Below are positions 10,475 to 24,650 of a stretch of 43,577 nucleotides of DNA, piece after piece. Each line of letters opens with the position of its first letter. Position 1 is the first letter of the stretch. The notes beneath the pieces are model-generated. The model saw only the letters and a list, made by a program, of their open reading frames with translations. It made no database searches and had not been told where the DNA came from. The position numbers were made by a program, and so were the translations under genes. Source of the DNA: Deltaproteobacteria bacterium (lineage in GTDB: Bacteria > UBA10199 > GCA-002796325 > JACPFF01); the NCBI GenBank assembly GCA_016183065.1, contig JACPFF010000006.1, forward strand, positions 1 through 43,577, in the 5' to 3' direction.

Positions 10475-12630
10475 TCCGTCTGCACGACATCCTCGACGCC
10501 GTGGCGGCGTATATTCCCGACGCCGACCTGGAACCGATCCAGAAGGCGTACATTTTTTCTGCCAAGTCCCACAAGGGGCAGACGCGCCGCTCCGGCGAGC
10601 CGTACCTGATCCACCCGATGGAAGTGGCGTGGATCCTCACGCAGATGAAACTCGACGTGGCCAGTGTGGCCACGGGCCTCTTGCATGACACCGTGGAAGA
10701 CACGGTCGCCACACTTGAGGAAGTCGAGGCGCTCTTTGGGGAAGAGATCAGGGAAATGGTCGATGGCATCACCAAGCTCGGAAAAATCCGGTTTCAGACC
10801 ACGGAAGAAAAGCAGGCCGAAAATTTCCGCAAGATGATCATGGCCATGGCCAAGGATATCCGTGTCATCTTCGTCAAACTGGCCGATCGCCTCCATAACA
10901 TGCGCACGCTCTCGCATTTGCTCGAGCCCAAACGGGTCGAGATTGCCCAGGAGACCCTCGACATTTACGCGCCGATCGCCAACCGGCTCGGGATCCAGCA
11001 GATGAAAGTGGAGTTGGAGGATCTGGCGCTCAAATATCTGAAGCCGGATGTCTTCCACATGATTGAGGAGAGGATCGCGAAACGCAAAGTGCATCGCGAT
11101 CATTTTATGCAGGAGGTACGGGAGATCGCGCAGCGCGAACTGGCAAAGCACCAGCTCTCCTGCGAGATTGTGGGGCGGACCAAGCATCTCTTCAGTATTC
11201 ACCGCAAAATGGAAGCGCAGAACATTCCCTTTGATGAAGTGCACGATCTGGTGGCGTTTCGCATCATGGTGGGGACGCTCTCGGAATGTTACGAGGCCCT
11301 CGGCATCCTCCATGCCCTCTGGAAGCCGGTTCCAGGCCGGTTCAAGGACTACATCGCCATGCCGAAGCAGAACAACTACCGCTCGCTCCACACGACCGTG
11401 GTCGGACCGCATGGCGAGCGGTGCGAATTCCAGATCCGGACGCGCGAGATGCACGACATCGCGGAACGCGGGATTGCGGCCCACTGGCGGTACAAGGAGC
11501 GCGGGCGGAAGATCGACCAGCAGGACGAGATGAAATTCAAGTGGGTGCGCCAGCTCCTCCAGTGGCAACGAGAGCTCGACGAGCCGGCGGAATTTCTCGA
11601 TACGATCAAGCTCGATCTCTTTGCCGATGACATCTACGTCTTTACCCCCAATGGCGAACTCAAGGAACTCCCGCGCGGCGCCACGCCGATCGATTTTGCG
11701 TATGACATCCATACCGATGTGGGGCACGCGTGCGTGGGCGCGCGGGTCAACGGACGGATTATCCCGCTCCGGTATCAATTACACAGCGGGGATACGGTCG
11801 AGATCATTACCGGCAAACAGAAGCGGCCGAACAAGGACTGGTTGCAGTTTGTCCGGACCTCCCGCGCAAAGGCCAAGATTCGCCACTATCTCCGTCATGA
11901 AGAACGGGAGCAGGCCGAGGCGATCGGCCGGGAGCTGCTCGACAAGGCGGGACATCGGGTCGGGGTCTCTGCGGCGAAAATCCTGAAGAGTAAAGAGGTC
12001 GCATCGTTCATGGTCCAGCACGGAATCAAAGATGTGGAGGGACTCCTTGCAACGATTGGCTATGGCAAGATGACGACCGATGAAGTCCTGGCCCTGGTGA
12101 TACCGAGGGAAGAGTGGCAGCAGGCCGAGTCGGTGCCGGCGCCGGCATCGAAGATGTCCCGGCTCGTCGGCAAAATCACGCGCCGCTCGCACAGTCCGGT
12201 CAAGATCAGCGGGATCAGCGACGTGCTGGTCCATTTTGGCAAATGTTGCAACCCCGTGCCGGGGGACTCGATTGTCGGTTTTGTCACCCGCGGGCGCGGT
12301 GTGAGCATCCATACGATCGATTGCGCCCGCGTGCTGGCGAGCGATCCGGCGCGGTGTCTCCCGGTGGAGTGGAATGTCGAGGCCGGGGCGGTCCGTATCG
12401 CGAAAATTCGCATCTCCTGCGTCGATCGTCCGGGACTTCTTGCCAAAATGACCGAGGCGATTACGGAACAGGAGGTCAATATTGTCGAGGCCTCCATCCG
12501 GACGATGGAGGATCAAAAGGCGGTCAATGTTTTCTCCATCGAGATCTCCGATCTGAACCAGTTGCGACAGGTGATCCATGCCCTGGAGAAAGTGAAGGGA
12601 GTCATCGCGGTCGAGCGGGTGCGTGGATAG
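10471..12630 (+). CDS. spoT: Bifunctional (p)ppGpp synthetase/hydrolase (RelA/SpoT family)
   Basis: The 719-residue product has the full domain set. The HD hydrolase contains HDTVEDT (residues 72-78), the intact active-site form. The synthetase contains RFKD (290-293, the RxKD form of bifunctional enzymes) and YRSLHTTVVGP. TGS follows (DDIYVFTPNGELKELPRG, about 386-403), then a Cys-containing zinc-finger region (HFGKCCNPVPGD, about 588-599) and a C-terminal ACT domain (RISCVDRPGLLAKM onward). It makes and degrades the stringent-response alarmone in the cytoplasm. Its ATG overlaps the gmk stop, so translation is probably coupled. Residues for both activities are present, so Rel/SpoT rather than RelA is the correct class. 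Confidence 0.95.
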   Translation: MIRLHDILDAVAAYIPDADLEPIQKAYIFSAKSHKGQTRRSGEPYLIHPMEVAWILTQMKLDVASVATGLLHDTVEDTVATLEEVEALFGEEIREMVDGITKLGKIRFQTTEEKQAENFRKMIMAMAKDIRVIFVKLADRLHNMRTLSHLLEPKRVEIAQETLDIYAPIANRLGIQQMKVELEDLALKYLKPDVFHMIEERIAKRKVHRDHFMQEVREIAQRELAKHQLSCEIVGRTKHLFSIHRKMEAQNIPFDEVHDLVAFRIMVGTLSECYEALGILHALWKPVPGRFKDYIAMPKQNNYRSLHTTVVGPHGERCEFQIRTREMHDIAERGIAAHWRYKERGRKIDQQDEMKFKWVRQLLQWQRELDEPAEFLDTIKLDLFADDIYVFTPNGELKELPRGATPIDFAYDIHTDVGHACVGARVNGRIIPLRYQLHSGDTVEIITGKQKRPNKDWLQFVRTSRAKAKIRHYLRHEEREQAEAIGRELLDKAGHRVGVSAAKILKSKEVASFMVQHGIKDVEGLLATIGYGKMTTDEVLALVIPREEWQQAESVPAPASKMSRLVGKITRRSHSPVKISGISDVLVHFGKCCNPVPGDSIVGFVTRGRGVSIHTIDCARVLASDPARCLPVEWNVEAGAVRIAKIRISCVDRPGLLAKMTEAITEQEVNIVEASIRTMEDQKAVNVFSIEISDLNQLRQVIHALEKVKGVIAVERVRG

Positions 12631-16510: not shown

Positions 16511-16880
16511 ACTGTTGTTTGCCCTGTTGTTGGCGCTCTTTTTCCTGGTCCTCGTGATCTTTGTCCTCTCCAATCGCGATGACACGACCTTTGGCTATGA
16601 AATGATCTTTCAATTTCATGTTCCCCATCTCTTTTCACGGCACACCAAGCCGATTCCGGTCGGATTTGTCCTGATGATCGCCTTCTGTCTCGGCATGGTC
16701 ACCACGCCGTTCCTGGAGGCGTTGCCGAATCTCTACAAATCGTTGGAGCTCCGCGCGAAGAACAAGCGGATCCGGCAGCTCGAGCGGGAACTGACCATGG
16801 TCCGTGAAATGGTGGTCTCGGAGAAACACCAATATCGGAGTGAGGTGCTCTCCACATCCCAACCGCCCGAGACGTCCTAG
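16503..16880 (+). CDS. lapA: LapA-family (DUF1049) inner-membrane protein
   Basis: The 125-residue product has two membrane segments (residues 4-24, and about 49-70 with PVGFVLMIAFCLGM) followed by a cytoplasmic coiled coil (KNKRIRQLERELTMVREM). This is the LapA/YciS architecture; in E. coli LapA works with LapB to control LpxC and LPS synthesis. lapB itself is not next to it. The gene overlaps the HIT gene. Its TAG stop shares a CTAG with the stop of the convergent gene at 16877. Confidence 0.8.
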   Translation: MRRLLFALLLALFFLVLVIFVLSNRDDTTFGYEMIFQFHVPHLFSRHTKPIPVGFVLMIAFCLGMVTTPFLEALPNLYKSLELRAKNKRIRQLERELTMVREMVVSEKHQYRSEVLSTSQPPETS

Positions 16881-17623
16881 CTCCGGATCCCCCGGCGACT
16901 CCGGCGGATCGCTTTGAGACGCGGCCCGCGGTCCTCTGGCCTGTCCGGCCCGACCGACGCCGGCAACTTCGCTTTTTCCAGTGCCTTGAGCGCACGCTGT
17001 TTCTCCGCACCCACCGTGTTCGAGAGCATGCTGAATGTCGAGGCCTCGGCCCGGGCCAATTGCTGCGGCGTTGCAGGTCCGTCGGGGTTGAGTGCCAGTT
17101 CGGTCGCGAGCATGGTGGCAAAGAGGAGTTCCAGCCGGCGCAACGGCGAGGGGTGTTCTTCGAGCCACTGTTGAATGCGCGCCTTGGCCGTCCGATCAAC
17201 TGTGAGCAACCCGCCCGGCTGACGGATCTCTTTTTTCAAGGTGTCGATCTGCTGCTGGAGCGTGCGGTGATTCCACCCACAGGAGGGGGCAATGCTCGCG
17301 TCGACGAGTTCTTGAAACCCCTCGTCGGTATACTGTCCTTCATTGATCAGGCGCGGTTCAAAGGGGGCATACAGCTCACCTTGGTATCGATAGTGATCGA
17401 GTGTCATAAAATCGGGCTTTGAAAGGATATAGGTCCCCTGGGTAGTCCGAAAGGGGGCAAAGGCGTTCTGCCATGCTTCCATCGCGAATTGGGTCGTATC
17501 GACGAAACCGAGCTGCCAGAGGAGTTCGATGTCCACATCCAGATAGGTGATATGCTCACTGTCAGGGGCCTTGGGGATGTGTCCCCACAGATACTCACAC
17601 ATATCGATATCGGCGGCTTTCAT
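16877..17623 (-). CDS. Hypothetical protein, unknown family
   Basis: The 248-residue product is soluble and has no signal peptide. The N-terminal half is rich in aromatic and acidic residues (MKAADIDMCEYLWGHIPK, YLDVDIELLWQLGFVD). The C-terminal third is basic (RAEASTFSMLSNTVG, then ALKALEKAKL and RRSRRGIRS). I recognise no domain. The start is well set: AAGGAGGAG lies 4 nt upstream, and TTTTCA-16-TATGCT upstream could be a promoter. It converges on lapA with stop codons interlocked in CTAG. Composition is like the host core. Confidence 0.65.
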   Translation of the reverse strand: MKAADIDMCEYLWGHIPKAPDSEHITYLDVDIELLWQLGFVDTTQFAMEAWQNAFAPFRTTQGTYILSKPDFMTLDHYRYQGELYAPFEPRLINEGQYTDEGFQELVDASIAPSCGWNHRTLQQQIDTLKKEIRQPGGLLTVDRTAKARIQQWLEEHPSPLRRLELLFATMLATELALNPDGPATPQQLARAEASTFSMLSNTVGAEKQRALKALEKAKLPASVGPDRPEDRGPRLKAIRRSRRGIRS

Positions 17624-17758
17624 GGTCTCCTCCTTTGTTCCCGATCAGCATAGCACTTAAATCCGGCGTGAAAATGCCATTTTTCAGACCAGCGAATCAA
17701 GTTTTTTGATTTTTTTCATCGCAAATTCGAACACATCCTGATGGGGACTATTTTTTGG

Positions 17759-19125
17759 GGTCATCGTAAAACCGAGTGGGTAAATTGAAGGGATTGAAGC
17801 GCCTGCAAGTCGCTCTAGAAGCGGCTAAGAAAAAGATTGAAGGGGTCCAGAAACCTGTAGGACTGAGGGATGCGAAAGAAGAGATGCCTTGGGGATGAAT
17901 ATCGGTTCCCCGGATTGTATCCCAAGTCAGGCGTTCAGAGGATTTTTGGAGACCCGAAAGCCCGCAGTATTGTTCTCATCCGTCGTCAAAAAAAACGAGA
18001 TGCGGTTCTTGCGGAACCTTCCATCGGAGCTTCTACGACCGGAAGATGCGTTGGGTACGGGACTTGTCGTGCGGGGATGCTCGGATCTATCTGGACCTGG
18101 AGATTCGACGGGTCTTTTGCCGGAGCTGCGGGAAGGTGAGGCAGGAGAAGCTCGATTGGTTGGCCGACAATCCGTTCTACACGAAGAGATTCGCTTTCTT
18201 TGTCGGGAGACGGTGCCGGGCGATGACGATCCAGGACGTGGCCAAGGAGACCCGTCTGGACTGGCACACGATCAAGGAGTTGGAGAAGCAGTACATGAAG
18301 GAACAGCTCCGGAGGACGGGGACGCCGGCGCCGAAGGTCATCGGCATCGACGAGATCTCGATCAAAAAAGGGCATACATATCGGATCGTGGTGAGCGATC
18401 TGGAGAGGCGGCGTCCCATCTGGTTCGGTGGAATGGACCGGTCGGAAGAAAGCATGGATCTGTTTTACCAATCCCTGGGGTCCAGGAAGGCCAAGAAGAT
18501 CCGGTCGGCGGTGATGGACATGTGGAAGGCTTTCGAAAAGTCGGCGAAGAAGAATATCCCGGAGGCCGCAATCCTTTACGACAAGTTCCATGTGATGCGG
18601 CATTTGGGCGAGGCGATGGATACGGTGAGGAAGAAGGAATACGGGAGGCTTGCGGGAAAAGACCGGTCGTTTATCAAGGGGCAGAAGTACACGTTACTTT
18701 CGCGGAAGGAAAACCTGGATCTTCCGGGTCGTCAATCGCTTCGGAAGCTCTTGAAGGCGAACAAGAGGCTGAATACGGCCCATCTTTTGACGGAGACCTT
18801 TGGGCAGTTGTGGAGTTACGAGACGGAAGGCTGGGCGCGTCGGTTCTTCGACAACTGGAAAGCATCGTTGAAGTGGCAGAGGCTCAAGCCCTACGAAGAG
18901 TTCGCCGAGATGATCGAGCGGCATTGGGAGGGGATCGCGGCCTACTGTCATCCCGAAAACAAAGTGGCCTTGGGATTTGTGGAAGGCTTAAACAACAAGA
19001 TCCGGGTGATCCAACGACGGGCCTACGGTCTACGAGACGAAGAATATCTTCGGCTCAAGATCCTGACTTGTATGCTCAAGGGGATTTGAAACCGTGAAAA
19101 TCACCCACTCGGAAACGCGAAGACC
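17759..19125 (+). mobile_element. ISL3-family insertion sequence
   Basis: An ISL3-type transposase ORF lies between imperfect inverted ends. The left end is GGTCATCGTAAAACCGAGTG... from 17759. The right end, read on the minus strand from 19125, is GGTCTTCGCGTTTCCGAGTG. They share GGTC, TCG and CCGAGTGGGT. The length is about 1.37 kb, usual for the family. ISL3 elements normally make 8-bp target duplications; the flanks (TTTTTTGG and TAAATAAA) do not match, so it may have recombined after insertion. It marks the left edge of the AT-rich island. The 135 bp between the unknown gene and this IS (17624-17758) hold only T-rich sequence. Confidence 0.8.
18046..19089 (+). CDS. ISL3-family transposase, N-terminus in another frame
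   Basis: The 347-residue ORF covers the second half of a zinc finger (CRSCGK) and an HTH region (TIQDVAKETRLDWHTIKELEK). The DDE catalytic core follows, with DEISIKKGH, YDKFHVMRH and FVEGLNNKIRVIQRRAYG. In frame, sequence just upstream of the ATG encodes RCGSCGTFHRSFYDRK, the first zinc-finger half, but no start codon precedes it in that frame. The likely N-terminus (ATG 17870, YRFPGLYPKSGVQRIFGDP...RRQKK) is in the next frame and reaches a run of eight A at 17988-17995. A -1 slip there joins both parts into a full transposase. Either programmed slippage or an inactivating indel is possible. Confidence 0.85.
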   Translation: MRWVRDLSCGDARIYLDLEIRRVFCRSCGKVRQEKLDWLADNPFYTKRFAFFVGRRCRAMTIQDVAKETRLDWHTIKELEKQYMKEQLRRTGTPAPKVIGIDEISIKKGHTYRIVVSDLERRRPIWFGGMDRSEESMDLFYQSLGSRKAKKIRSAVMDMWKAFEKSAKKNIPEAAILYDKFHVMRHLGEAMDTVRKKEYGRLAGKDRSFIKGQKYTLLSRKENLDLPGRQSLRKLLKANKRLNTAHLLTETFGQLWSYETEGWARRFFDNWKASLKWQRLKPYEEFAEMIERHWEGIAAYCHPENKVALGFVEGLNNKIRVIQRRAYGLRDEEYLRLKILTCMLKGI

Positions 19126-19134
19126 TAAATAAAA

Positions 19135-19980
19135 CTATCGTTTTTTCTTTCCGGACACTCTTGTCTTTTTATTCACACCATTCTTTTTCCTCACCGTTTT
19201 ATTTTTTGGCACAATGCGTGTAGATGAAATGCTCTTTTTTCCAGGTGCGATAACACCACCGGAATCCAATTCAATTCCAAACAACTGTGACAGATTTTTA
19301 GATTTAAGAACTTTGTCAGTTTGTTTACCACTTGTGGTGATTCCAGTTGTCCCTGCGGCAATGAGTTCCAAGTGATCCACATGACGCAGCTCGAAAAAGA
19401 GTTCCGGCTTTTCATCCAAACGTGCGCCGACACCATAAAGTGCTGCGGCCACATGCTTACACATGACAGCACCATCCGGACAAGAGCAATCCATCGAAAT
19501 TTGTTGGGGAGAAGGAAATAAACCTTTTTGTTTGTCGGTAATGACGCCCATGACAGCTTTTGAAAACCTTCCCTGCAACAGTTCAATCAGTGAGTCGATT
19601 TGTCCTGAGCAGTTTTTGATTAAAGATTGCCAACGATCTTTTTCGAGAGCCCGAATGACAATCTCAACAGTGTAAAGCGACGAACCGTTGACCAGCGCTG
19701 TGACTTTACCTTTGCCGATTTGTAAATCCAAGACGGAACCGTTGCGTAAATAACTGCGTCCACGCGGGAGGCGGTTTTCAAAATCGCTATAGGCTTCGAG
19801 ATTACTGCACCAAGATTTACCCCAGAACGTTTTGGCAATCGTCCGGCCTTCGAGTTGAACGGGACTAATGGATCGTCCCTTTTTCTGCAGGGCTTTGATT
19901 TTTTTAGCGGCCTGTAGCTTTCGTTTAGCCACCGATACATAAGGCGCAAAACCTCCGTAACTGTAATAACCATAAGACAT
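19135..19980 (-). CDS. SWIM zinc-finger protein
   Basis: The 281-residue product carries CSCPDGAVMCKHVAAALYG (about residues 162-180), the CxCx(n)CxH signature of SWIM fingers, thought to bind DNA or protein. The N-terminus (YGGFAPYVSVAKRKLQAAKK) and FWGKSWCSNLEAY are typical of the SWIM proteins paired with SNF2 helicases (B. subtilis YwqB-like). The C-terminal tail is very basic (KKNGVNKKTRVSGKKKR). ATG 19980 is chosen over GTG 19986 because GAGGTG lies just upstream of the ATG. It follows the helicase by 7 bp; its ribosome-binding site overlaps the helicase stop. It is clearly AT-richer than the host genes. Confidence 0.85.
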   Translation of the reverse strand: MSYGYYSYGGFAPYVSVAKRKLQAAKKIKALQKKGRSISPVQLEGRTIAKTFWGKSWCSNLEAYSDFENRLPRGRSYLRNGSVLDLQIGKGKVTALVNGSSLYTVEIVIRALEKDRWQSLIKNCSGQIDSLIELLQGRFSKAVMGVITDKQKGLFPSPQQISMDCSCPDGAVMCKHVAAALYGVGARLDEKPELFFELRHVDHLELIAAGTTGITTSGKQTDKVLKSKNLSQLFGIELDSGGVIAPGKKSISSTRIVPKNKTVRKKNGVNKKTRVSGKKKR

Positions 19981-19987
19981 ATTCACC

Positions 19988-22762
19988 TCAGCTTTCTTCT
20001 ATGGCACTCTTCAAATCAAGCGAAACAAGTTTGATGAGGTCTGTGTTAGACATTTCTGTCAGCACAGCATCTTGACTGCCCTCTAAAATTTCTTGAGACA
20101 ATTTCTGTTTTGATTTGATGAGTTCATCAATACGTTCTTCAATTGTTCCGCGACAAATAAATTTATGCACCAGCACGTTCTTTTTTTGCCCGATACGAAA
20201 AGCGCGGTCGGTGGCTTGGTTTTCCACCGCAGGGTTCCACCATCGATCAAAGTGAATCACGTGCGAAGCCGCCGTTAAATTCAAACCTGTACCTCCCGCT
20301 TTGAGCGAAAGCACAAAATGGGGAGGGCCTTGTTCCTCTTGGAATTCTTTAACCATATCACCACGGTTTTTAACAGTGGTTTCTCCATGCAAAACAAGAC
20401 CTGTTCTAGCAAAAATACCGGCCAGGAAGCGCGAGAGTGGTTCCGTGATTTCACGAAACTGCGTGAAGACCAAAAGCTTTTCCTGCTTGGCGGCAATCTC
20501 CTCACAAATCTCGCGCAGCCGGTTAAACTTACCGCTATCTTGTGGGGCATATTTGCCGTCCGAAAACCATTGGGATGGATGATTGCAAATCTGTTTGAAA
20601 CGCATGAGCGAGGCAAGAATAATGCCGCGTCGCTGAATGCCGTCCGCTTCGTCTAATTGTCTGGCCAAGGTATCCACCGATTGCTGATACAGCGCCGCTT
20701 GCGCTTTGGTGAGCGGGCAGTAAACCGAGAGTTCGGTCTTGTCTGGTAAATCAGAGATAATACGTTTGTCGGTTTTGAGGCGTCGTAACAAATACGGTCG
20801 CACCAAATCACGCAACGCACCATACGGCTGGGTCGCATCATTCTTTTCGCAAGCTTTAACAAATTTTTCAAATGCCTTGGCCGAACTCAAAAGCCCTGGG
20901 CACAGAAAGTCATAAATCGACCACAAATCGGAGAGATGATTTTCAACCGGCGTACCCGTCAATGCCAAACGATGACGACTTTTCAAGTCTTTGACTGCAC
21001 GAGTTTGTTTGGTTCCTGGGTTTTTAATGGCCTGTGCCTCATCAATGACAATAACATTCCAAGAAGTTTTTTTCAGCCAATTCAGTCGCCCTAAAAAACC
21101 ATAAGTTGTGATGACAACATCTGTGTCTTGCAAAATCTTTTGCGAAGGATTTTCGATATCACCGGTTTTTTGACCATCAGTTCCAATGGCTGATGGATGA
21201 GCAATAAAATATTTAAGGCTAGGGGCAAATTTTTCGATTTCGGATTTCCAATTTCCAATGAGCGAGGCCGGAACAACCAGCAGATTGATTCTCGATTCAT
21301 TTTGAGAAACTTTCATTTTTTCTTTTTGTAGCATCAAAAATAACGCAATTACCTGCACTGTTTTACCAAGACCCATATCGTCAGCCAAGCACGCACCAAG
21401 TCCTAATCGATTGAGGAACCACAGCCACTGCACTCCAATTTGCTGGTAAGGTCGCAGTGTGGTTTTGAGTTCTGCCCCAAGAGCAGTATTTGACTTTATT
21501 TTGCCCTGTGGGTCTTTAAGTTCGGCGAGCTGTTTTGCCAAAACTTCCCCGGCAACCACTTGGGACCAATCTGCAGAAGCCTGAGAAAATAATTCTCCAT
21601 CATCGCCGCCAATGGCTGCTCCCGAAAGCAATCGCATCCCTTCGATAAACGATAAGCCATCTTCAGCGTGACGTTCAACGGTCTTCCAATGTTTGAGCGC
21701 TTCTTTGAGCTTGTCCTTGTCGACCTCTGTCCATTGGCCACGTAGCAAAACTAACCCATTGGTGCCTGCAAGAATTTGCCGCAATTCCTCCTCACTCAAT
21801 TTTTCACCGCCCAAAGTGACAGAAACAGAAAAATCCAATAGCGCGTTGGCTCCAACTGCTGACATTCCCTTGTTGCCGATAGTCACCGAAACTTGAGGCC
21901 TTGATGGCTGTTTTGGCTTCCACCAGTCTGGAATACGCACAACAACACCTGATGATTCCAGCACAGGAATATTTTTTAGAAATTGATGAGCCTCTTGCGG
22001 TGTCCAGGCGAGCGGGTGATAAACCTCTCCGGAGTCAACAAGCCCTTTGATAAATTCGCTTTGGCTGGCTGCTTTTTGAACGGGCGTTAAGAGTTGCAAA
22101 AGCTGAACCTTGTTTTTGGCTCCGGCATATTCTTCCAGCGCTTTTCCCAAGGGAATGTGTTGTGCCTTTCCTTGCATCGAGAGTTTGTGTGTGTAGGTGG
22201 CCAGAAAGGCAAAGGGCGCCACAGGGTTATTTTTATTCTCGGCCAAATGAAAACAAACGCGCCCGATAAGATTCAAAACAGAACCATGACTTTCAAAAAA
22301 AGACTGAACAGGGTTTTCTGTGCTTTTTGAAAGGGAGGCAAGAAATCCGCTCAACTCTTTTTGAAAAGCAGTTTGCAATTGATCCCAAATTTGAGTGAGC
22401 ACATCCACGTTTAAATATTCGGCTCCCATCATGGGCGGTGGTGTTGTGGCGAATGTTGTCAATTCGTCGTGAGGCACGGGGATTTGAATGGTAATAGCCA
22501 AGTCAGGATTTGTCAGTTCCGGTAATCTGCAGAGATGAGAAAAAAACAGTCTGGAAAAATCAATCCAATAAGAAATATCCGGTGGCAAGTCATCAGAGGT
22601 TGGAGATAAACCAAGATACAAAAGTCCGACGATGCCACTACGCGCAAAAGTCAAGCGAATCTTATCTGACAAGTTCTTGCCCGCATCGGGCAGAAGATGC
22701 ACCATGCCTTGCGGCGAAAGCGCGATTGAAAAATGTTCGTGCTCCATAATCTGATTTGTCAC
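19988..22762 (-). CDS. SNF2-family DEAD/DEAH helicase
   Basis: The 924-residue product has an N-terminal SNF2-associated region of about 420 residues, then a complete SF2 motor. Motif I is DDMGLGKT (about 462-469), motif II VIDEAQAIKNPG, and motif III ALTGTPVENHLSDLWS. The C-lobe has SLKAGGTGLNLT, HFDRWWNPAVENQ and ATDRAFRIGQKK. Bacterial SNF2 proteins translocate on double-stranded DNA. The start is taken as GTG 22762: it overlaps the upstream stop as GTGA (22759-22762) and has GGAAAG before it. ATG 22747 lacks a ribosome-binding site. Size and pairing with the SWIM protein match the YwqA/YwqB pair, whose role is not established. Confidence 0.93.
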   Translation of the reverse strand: MTNQIMEHEHFSIALSPQGMVHLLPDAGKNLSDKIRLTFARSGIVGLLYLGLSPTSDDLPPDISYWIDFSRLFFSHLCRLPELTNPDLAITIQIPVPHDELTTFATTPPPMMGAEYLNVDVLTQIWDQLQTAFQKELSGFLASLSKSTENPVQSFFESHGSVLNLIGRVCFHLAENKNNPVAPFAFLATYTHKLSMQGKAQHIPLGKALEEYAGAKNKVQLLQLLTPVQKAASQSEFIKGLVDSGEVYHPLAWTPQEAHQFLKNIPVLESSGVVVRIPDWWKPKQPSRPQVSVTIGNKGMSAVGANALLDFSVSVTLGGEKLSEEELRQILAGTNGLVLLRGQWTEVDKDKLKEALKHWKTVERHAEDGLSFIEGMRLLSGAAIGGDDGELFSQASADWSQVVAGEVLAKQLAELKDPQGKIKSNTALGAELKTTLRPYQQIGVQWLWFLNRLGLGACLADDMGLGKTVQVIALFLMLQKEKMKVSQNESRINLLVVPASLIGNWKSEIEKFAPSLKYFIAHPSAIGTDGQKTGDIENPSQKILQDTDVVITTYGFLGRLNWLKKTSWNVIVIDEAQAIKNPGTKQTRAVKDLKSRHRLALTGTPVENHLSDLWSIYDFLCPGLLSSAKAFEKFVKACEKNDATQPYGALRDLVRPYLLRRLKTDKRIISDLPDKTELSVYCPLTKAQAALYQQSVDTLARQLDEADGIQRRGIILASLMRFKQICNHPSQWFSDGKYAPQDSGKFNRLREICEEIAAKQEKLLVFTQFREITEPLSRFLAGIFARTGLVLHGETTVKNRGDMVKEFQEEQGPPHFVLSLKAGGTGLNLTAASHVIHFDRWWNPAVENQATDRAFRIGQKKNVLVHKFICRGTIEERIDELIKSKQKLSQEILEGSQDAVLTEMSNTDLIKLVSLDLKSAIEES

Positions 22763-24177
22763 GTCTTTCCGAAGAGAGCCCGTACTGTGATATATTTTTG
22801 TTTTTTACTTCTTGGAACATCCGGCAACGTATAAGCCAGTTTTCTTTCTTTAATAAGACGTGGAAGCAATTCTTTTCGGACATAGTCCAAACTAAGGCCG
22901 GTCTCCGCAATAATTTGGTCCCGGCTTTTTGCTGTTTTGCAAAATTCCAAAATCTTCAGTTCAGATGACGAAATATCATCATGATCATGGGGGGTATCAT
23001 GGGGGGTATCATGGGGGGTATCATGGGGGGTATCATGACGGGCAGCATCAGCCGGTTTTGCGCCAAAGGTGACTTTAAATCCTTGGTCTTCTTCTAGAAT
23101 TGGTTCGGGATGTCCGGCGGCCTTTGTCTCCTCAATCATCTTCATCACGCCGCTTCCCCATTGCTCAATGAGCCCCACATAAAAGAACATTTTGGCAATC
23201 AGTTTGTTTTTGGGAAATGAGCGGTGTTCTTTTTTCAATTTTTCAACGGACAAGTTCTGAGGCAGGTCTCCCGGATTCCAGACCAGAATATGATCATCGT
23301 AAATTCGAATTTGGGTGTGACCGGTTTCTGCATAATCCCTGTGGCAAACGGCATTGGTGACAGCCTCACGCAGAGCATCAAGCGGATATTCCCAAATCAC
23401 ATCTCTTTGAGGTTTGCCGGTCATTCTGAATTCAGTTTGCAGGCGGTCACGAAAATACTGCATGGTATTTTCAACTTGATCAAAGAGTGTTTCTTCAACT
23501 TCACGATCATCCACAATCAGGGTTTCCGATCTAAAACGTCCGATTTTTATGACGGCATGCGAATAAAATTTTTGTGGATTCTTACCAAACAGAAGCACAG
23601 CAGCTCGGGTGAGTTTGCCATCTTTCATCAAGTCCAGTTTTCCCAACAATTCCGGTATTGAAATAGAGGCTGGAATGGGTCTTCTTCCAATTTCGTTTGC
23701 CTTGCGAATGAAAGTTTTGATTTTGGTTGTGCTGATGTCAGCGATTTTGGCACGAGGCTCTGGCAACGCATCCCATGTGACACCGATATGATCCAAAACC
23801 AGGCGGGTTAATTCGTTGGCTCCCATCTGCCGCGTTGTACTGCCAACACGACGATAGGCACGCCCACGATACATGACAGGCTTGATCTTGTTTTCCGAAA
23901 CCTGAATTAAAATGATGTTTTTTTCATCGACTCGGACCGCCTTGATGGATGGCTGTAGCCCCGTGCCTTGATCGATTTGGTTGGCCATGTCCTTGAGTAC
24001 GGACTGATCGGCTTTGACTCCAACCACAACACCCTTGTCGTTGACGCCAACAAACACAATGCCCCCCTTGGTATTGGCAAGGGCCGAAAGCGACTCAAGC
24101 ACCTCACGGGAAAACGACTGCTTGAATTCAACGATTTCCGATTCACCGGACTTAAGCATTTTTGTGATGTTGTCCAT
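22759..24177 (-). CDS. AlbA_2 (Schlafen-type) and HATPase domain protein
   Basis: The 472-residue product begins with MLKSGESEIVEFKQSF...LANTKGGIVFVGVNDKG, an AlbA_2/Schlafen-like DNA- or nucleotide-binding domain. Next comes the RecG-like/HATPase_c_4 part with ALREAVTNAVCHRDYAETG and WNPGDLPQNLS. A repetitive HDTP linker follows, then a winged-helix-like end (SSELKILEFCKTAKSRDQI). Such proteins are usually annotated as putative transcriptional regulators; some family members occur in defence loci. The first gene of the operon is AT-rich. ATG 24177 gives the family's normal beginning; ATG 24189 and TTG 24213 are also in frame and none has a clear Shine-Dalgarno, so the start is uncertain. Confidence 0.85.
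   Translation of the reverse strand: MDNITKMLKSGESEIVEFKQSFSREVLESLSALANTKGGIVFVGVNDKGVVVGVKADQSVLKDMANQIDQGTGLQPSIKAVRVDEKNIILIQVSENKIKPVMYRGRAYRRVGSTTRQMGANELTRLVLDHIGVTWDALPEPRAKIADISTTKIKTFIRKANEIGRRPIPASISIPELLGKLDLMKDGKLTRAAVLLFGKNPQKFYSHAVIKIGRFRSETLIVDDREVEETLFDQVENTMQYFRDRLQTEFRMTGKPQRDVIWEYPLDALREAVTNAVCHRDYAETGHTQIRIYDDHILVWNPGDLPQNLSVEKLKKEHRSFPKNKLIAKMFFYVGLIEQWGSGVMKMIEETKAAGHPEPILEEDQGFKVTFGAKPADAARHDTPHDTPHDTPHDTPHDHDDISSSELKILEFCKTAKSRDQIIAETGLSLDYVRKELLPRLIKERKLAYTLPDVPRSKKQKYITVRALFGKT
22984..23031. repeat. Four perfect 12-bp tandem repeats within the AlbA_2 gene
   Basis: ATCATGGGGGGT occurs four times in a row, followed by a partial fifth unit. On the coding strand it encodes Thr-Pro-His-Asp repeats linking the ATPase and winged-helix parts. 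Unit changes would stay in frame, so linker length can vary by slippage without killing the protein. Confidence 0.9.
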
Positions 24178-24419
24178 TTTTTGGCGCATTTGAAATGAAA
24201 CATATACCACCAAATACCAGAAATCAAAGAGCTATTTCGTTTTTCAGATCTGAAACTCACCTTAGTTTACGGTCATTGCATAATACCTCATGTGCGGTCG
24301 CGTTGTGCCGCATTCAAATGGGAAAAATGTGATGACTATCAGCGCGGACGGCATGCCCACGACCTTCATCAGCCTCGCCAGCTCGCGCTTCCGCCGCGCC
24401 CTCCACCCGGCCTTCATCA

Positions 24420-24650
24420 ACGAAGTTGTCGGTTTCTCCCCGGTCGTAGAAACTCGGGTAGGTGACTCCGTAAGACCCACAGGCTGTAGTTTTTGACGAC
24501 GCCGGAGCGTGCCACCTCTCGTCCCCGGATTGCCAAGAATCCCCTGAACCCTCGCTTTAGGATGAAATCCGGGGAACCGATACGCATCCCCAAGGCCTCT
24601 CTTTTTTTGCCTCCCTTATTCATCCAGGTTTTTAGTTCTCACGCGAAGGA
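24420..24650 (-). mobile_element. Inverted remnant of an ISL3-type element (N-terminal part)
   Basis: Read on the minus strand, GCCTTGGGGATGCGTATCGG... matches the start of the IS at 17.88 kb. Both have CTTGGGGATG, TATCGGTTCCCCGGATT, GTCGTCAAAAA and TTTCTACGACCGG in the same order. The translation YRFPGFHPKARVQGILGNPG aligns with YRFPGLYPKSGVQRIFGDPK of the left copy, and the zinc-finger CGSCG appears as CGSYG. No DDE core and no CCGAGTGGGT end remain. It lies between the island operon and the sensor kinase. The stretch 24178-24419 shows no gene I can support. Confidence 0.75.

Follow-up and report, generated by a model that had tools for sequence, protein, structure and literature searches.

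Three tightly packed genes in a Deltaproteobacteria bacterium contig encode an AlbA_2/HATPase protein, an SNF2-family motor and a SWIM zinc-finger protein. Do they form a fixed three-part system, or does the first gene travel on its own account beside an established pair? SNF2-SWIM pairs are spread over many phyla without an agreed function, and here a Schlafen-type gene, possibly one for RNA cutting, is joined to the known pair as an occasional, swappable neighbour. Throughout, "the window" denotes the whole stretch of 43,577 nucleotides that was analysed.

Gene content and chromosomal setting

The locus and its edges comprise the following features.

17740–19130, plus strand: near-complete ISL3-family insertion sequence at the left edge (profile matches)
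19135–19980, minus strand: SWIM zinc-finger gene, partner of the SNF2 motor (ORF calls, Pfam)
19988–22762, minus strand: SNF2-family gene with a DUF3670 domain, 924 aa (ORF calls, Pfam)
22759–22762, minus strand: GTGA stop/start overlap of the AlbA_2 and SNF2 genes (sequence inspection)
22759–24177, minus strand: AlbA_2 (Schlafen-core) plus HATPase_c_4 gene (ORF calls, Pfam)
24440–24631, minus strand: inverted 192-bp remnant of an ISL3 5′ end at the right edge (70–78% over about 190 bp)

The head-to-tail packing of three minus-strand genes, the GTGA overlap and the 7-bp gap between the SNF2 stop and the SWIM start (ATG 19980), all described in the sequence-only reading, were confirmed in the ORFs, and Pfam upheld its AlbA_2/HATPase, SNF2 and SWIM domain calls. 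The arrangement is operon-like and the genes are probably co-transcribed. The AlbA_2/HATPase frame is open to 24213 (22759–24213, minus strand) with an ATG at 24177, which the sequence-only reading took as the gene's end; the SWIM frame covers 19135–19986 (minus strand), and its ATG at 19980 is preceded by a good Shine-Dalgarno sequence, GAGGTGAAT-ATG.

The SNF2 protein matched DUF3670 (PF12419, E 1.4e-33), SNF2-rel (PF00176, E 3.6e-66) and Helicase_C (PF00271, E 1.3e-18). Its motifs DDMGLGKT, DEAQ and QATDRAFRIGQ are intact, and the motor motifs are invariant among 32 aligned SNF2 sequences. The closest solved relative is SsoRad54 (PDB 1z63, E 2e-128), and the predicted structure model has a pLDDT of 81. 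By family, and with its motifs intact, this is a putative dsDNA translocase. The SWIM protein matched its Pfam family (PF04434) at E 3.3e-4, just above the cut-off; the zinc motif CxCx6CxH is intact, and CxC..CxH is present in 74 of 74 relatives. Foldseek gave no significant structural match to the AF2 model of this protein (pLDDT 80). ZSWIM8, ranked top in a second structural comparison (Z 7.2, 101 residues, rmsd 4.6), was rejected as lying within the range of chance arrangements.

For the first gene, both SLFN_AlbA_2 (E 2.8e-20) and HATPase_c_4 (E 2.1e-21) scored above cut-off, and the C-terminus, which has no Pfam match, shows a sequence pattern that fits a wHTH. Residue numbers here start at the TTG at 24213. 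Of the putative catalytic acids, E24 does not vary among 19 aligned homologues, E29 is shared by at least 90% and D59 by most of them, and the HATPase N-box residues E283 and N287 are invariant. In rat SLFN13, E205, E210 and D248 are required for tRNA cleavage (PMC5862951). The E-E spacing of 5 in the AlbA_2 domain equals that of E205 and E210, and the third acid, D59, is placed by alignment only. A 2026 survey assigns an AlbA_2-HATPase-wHTH architecture to an accessory RNase that accompanies BREX and related systems in at least 1017 taxa (PMC12839542). Given the retained putative catalytic acids (PMC5862951) and an architecture described for an accessory RNase (PMC12839542), a Schlafen-type RNase-fold protein is more likely than the roles originally proposed for this gene, regulator and DNA-end sensor. 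The first gene encodes a bacterial Schlafen-type protein, with RNase activity predicted from its family.

The linker of this protein contains four DTPH units, encoded by a 12-bp tandem repeat at 22972–23048; in a 63% relative from genome G031, TPQA units stand there instead. A second, solo AlbA_2/HATPase gene lies between host genes elsewhere in the same genome (G000:C15, about 116900–118330; L107, 6903–8330) and is also of foreign composition (GC3 0.50).

GC content drops from 0.60 in the flanks to about 0.45 in the segment. Its three genes range from 0.44 to 0.46, and their GC3 is 0.42–0.46 compared with 0.67–0.76 in six surrounding host genes, which bears out the description of a foreign island. 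That the island is "IS-bounded" holds in part: a near-complete ISL3 element stands on the left, and on the right there is only the inverted ISL3 remnant. The left transposase lies at 18046–19089, the N-terminal zinc-ribbon portion of its ORF is incomplete, and the element has a relative with 75% identity elsewhere in the same genome (C25). Between the AlbA_2 gene and the remnant is a short ORF (24290–24496) starting MCGR; it resembles the first residues of SRAP/YedK proteins and is perhaps a gene fragment.

To the left of the ISL3 element lies the block S49-HU-HIT-LapA-orf248, which three related genomes retain in full; a fourth has the first four of these genes. The last member, orf248 (16877–17623, 248 aa), has no Pfam match and shows 38–47% identity across the three related genomes. 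Since this block is kept in related genomes, the segment is most likely an insertion beyond orf248. The histidine kinase to the right of the segment was not found in the related genomes that keep the left-hand block. The best reading is that the AlbA_2-SNF2-SWIM segment was acquired horizontally.

A conserved pair and a changing neighbour

We took a census of the 80 closest SNF2 loci in GTDB genomes, which come from many phyla and share 51–66% identity with the window protein. In 77 of the 78 readable loci a SWIM gene lies directly downstream, no more than 300 bp from SNF2; at the single exception (L019) a plasmid-type, pRiA4b ORF-3-like gene (10579–11649) stands between the two. Plasmid copies of the pair sit among IS elements and toxin-antitoxin genes. 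Control searches found the DUF3670 and SWIM families in the B. subtilis genome as well, and we take these two genes to be YwqA and YwqB. The pair, already called a known unit from the sequence, is indeed a known and very widespread cassette, and it is the conserved unit of the locus. Mobile systems are reported to carry SsoRad54-type SNF2 ATPases associated with SWIM as a common feature (PMC5512222). For B. subtilis YwqA, binding to RNA polymerase and a more severe PcrA-depletion phenotype on its loss have been reported, along with an inferred RapA-like role (PMC7385302, PMC10804225); the ATPase core is the ground for regarding it as a putative RapA homologue. Literature searches on HelZ/Rv2101 and on a pilus-regulating Snf2 yielded nothing on function.

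The third gene behaves differently from the pair. None of the 80 loci yielded an AlbA_2 gene next to the pair, in 714 kb of flank with mechanically called ORFs and short MAG contigs at some loci. One apparent AlbA_2 neighbour, 4.5 kb off at L038, was rejected: its N-terminus looks DUF4062-like and does not align with AlbA_2, and the HATPase half alone matches. No other third gene recurs among 103 immediate neighbours, where the top Pfam family, HipA_C, occurs three times. At one locus (L021, 547–1881) the overlap of a HipA-type gene with the start of SNF2 is operon-like. Nor is there a PADLOC excess beside the pair, with 55 families in the 103 neighbours and 51 in 103 control genes, a rough comparison because families were counted, not proteins, and the controls were drawn from different genomes. 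As a fixed three-gene system, AlbA_2-SNF2-SWIM fails.

The adjacency is nonetheless not peculiar to the window, as a chance event confined to this locus would be: AlbA_2 also adjoins the pair in two more genomes of the host phylum and in one from outside. DUF3670 occurs in 32 of 290 genomes sampled domain-wide, and AlbA_2 lies within 10 kb of this family in four of them (the window's genome, G030, G031 and G083). The host-phylum sample consists of 46 genomes, and AlbA_2 adjoins the pair in all three that have the family, one of them being the ascertained window, where about 0.03 cases would be expected within 5 kb. Outside the phylum, one linked case was observed against 0.29 expected within 5 kb. 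This case, in G083 (L109, C120; 338–7442), has SNF2, SWIM, a DUF4143 AAA ATPase (PADLOC candidate PDC-S01) and AlbA_2 in succession on one strand, and the genome holds nine AlbA_2 matches in 1.7 Mb.

Gene orders in the host phylum are of three kinds: AlbA>SNF2>SWIM, AlbA>SWIM>SNF2 and convergent. SWIM precedes SNF2 in G030 (L104, 9413–13002) and G031 (L105, 11024–14668), opposite to the 78 other readable close loci, and the SNF2 proteins of these two genomes form a clade of their own. In trees, the pair-linked AlbA_2 proteins are non-orthologous and are not sisters. G031 holds, as unlinked genes, the sisters of the window protein (63%) and of the G030 copy, and the pair-linked AlbA_2 of G031 itself is a third type. 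Because the linked proteins are non-orthologous, the linkage must have arisen or been exchanged several times in the host phylum. On this reading the Schlafen-type gene moves on its own and, in one phylum, lies next to the pair more often than chance would give.

Weighing the alternatives

We consider it about evenly balanced that the locus is a mobile cassette of SNF2 and SWIM joined by a Schlafen-type accessory gene that can be exchanged. SNF2 would be an ATP-driven motor travelling along double-stranded DNA that, to judge from its family, may displace or remodel proteins sitting on it, for example stalled RNA polymerase or obstacles to replication, and the SWIM protein would be its DNA- or partner-binding subunit. 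The Schlafen-type first gene would be a separate mobile gene, co-transcribed with the pair and repeatedly linked to it in the host phylum. Its product, predicted to combine an RNase-fold AlbA_2 domain bearing an acidic triad with an ATP-binding GHKL-like domain and a wHTH-like tail, would most likely act as an ATP-gated RNA-cleaving or self-regulating stress or anti-phage effector. Functional coupling to the pair, as effector or regulator, is plausible, and a defence role for the locus is possible; adjacency itself need not imply joint function, because cargo genes cluster in islands.

A rather unlikely account is that a solo Schlafen-type gene and an SNF2-SWIM pair are unrelated cargo brought together by chance at one IS-marked insertion site. 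The GTGA overlap and common composition of the window genes speak against it, as does the linkage in all three host-phylum genomes that have the family, in three arrangements, against about 0.03 expected. The lack of AlbA_2 near the 80 closest loci is what such an account predicts, and the near-background count outside the phylum (1 against 0.29) and the non-orthology of the linked proteins agree with it; so do the solo islands in which AlbA_2 genes commonly occur, for example the second copy in the same genome (G000:C15:116.9–118.3 kb). It is quite unlikely, in our estimate, that SNF2-SWIM provides, in the host phylum, the sensing half of a modular system for abortive infection, into which different, non-orthologous AlbA_2-HATPase proteins have been plugged at least three times as swappable Schlafen-type RNase effectors. 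An older annotation (COG2865) would make the AlbA_2/HATPase protein a transcription regulator and the operon a genome-maintenance unit. Its first position, its wHTH-like C-terminus and the genetic link of YwqA to replication-transcription conflict suit this idea, which we nevertheless hold to be decidedly unlikely: RNase-type acids are retained, and a regulator of the operon should have stayed with the pair in other genomes, as AlbA_2 has not.

A fully fledged three-part anti-phage system, in which SNF2-SWIM would sense or act on invading DNA and the Schlafen RNase would cut tRNA and abort infection, seems improbable to us. It draws on the Schlafen-HATPase-wHTH RNases that stand beside BREX/BR in at least 1017 taxa and have been described as abortive effectors that cut tRNA (PMC12839542), on the G083 row of SNF2, SWIM, PDC-S01 ATPase and AlbA_2, and on single neighbours at other loci that include DpdF, HmaC, PsyrT, HipA and an MTES_1575 nuclease. 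Set against these are the non-conservation of AlbA_2 as third gene and the similar PADLOC tallies of neighbours and controls (55 and 51 families). Within the window, ten other large ORFs gave only a weak RelA/SpoT cross-match to PADLOC, and those with Pfam matches are housekeeping-type genes. Viral contigs scanned with the AlbA_2 and SNF2 proteins contained no relative of either, in narrow scans whose single-protein queries detect close relatives only.

If the repeated linkage of the pair to different Schlafen-type proteins is functional, it offers a clue to a shared pathway of a DNA motor and an RNA-cutting effector. If it reflects shared cargo only, the idea of a fixed three-part unit is corrected, and a measured baseline is gained for the loose travel of AlbA_2 genes.

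Relation to named systems

An SNF2-type motor core is common to the window protein and to DISARM (DrmD), Zorya (ZorD) and Dpd (DpdE), and the match is mostly to this core and far below curated cut-offs. With NCBIfam models, the window protein scored 101.6 of 950 and 70.9 of 610 bits for DrmD and 289.7 bits against a cut-off of 1500 for ZorD. PADLOC matches to ZorD, DpdE and DrmD were rejected as identities, the common SNF2 core alone being responsible. DrmA, DrmB, DrmC, a methylase and other partner genes were absent from the window ORFs scanned. The comparison with DISARM that had been drawn from the sequence has the SNF2 core as its sole basis and falls short of the curated cut-offs. RapA/HepA likewise shares the SNF2 ATPase core, and YwqA reportedly binds RNA polymerase; unlike RapA/HepA, the window protein has no RapA-type flanking domains detectable with profile libraries, and it scored 44.6 bits with the RapA model, far under the cut-off of 576.

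The first gene resembles the bacterial Schlafen RNases of BREX/BR, which combine AlbA_2, a minimal HATPase and a wHTH, in domain order (its own wHTH being putative), in the acid triad E..E..D and in the N-box. Unlike them, the window copy, a putative RNase, is linked to an SNF2-SWIM pair instead of BREX core genes. The pair itself is closest to the SWIM-associated SNF2 ATPases (SsoRad54 type, YwqA/YwqB of Bacillus, SCO1167/SCO6262 helicases), which likewise have a DUF3670+SNF2+Helicase_C motor with an adjacent SWIM gene; the SCO1167/SCO6262 helicase equivalog (NCBIfam) gave 564.6 bits, below its cut-off of 1200. SNF2 proteins of the window type, at about 920 aa, are shorter than the 1030-aa branch, and the window operon differs from these relatives in having an AlbA_2 gene joined on.
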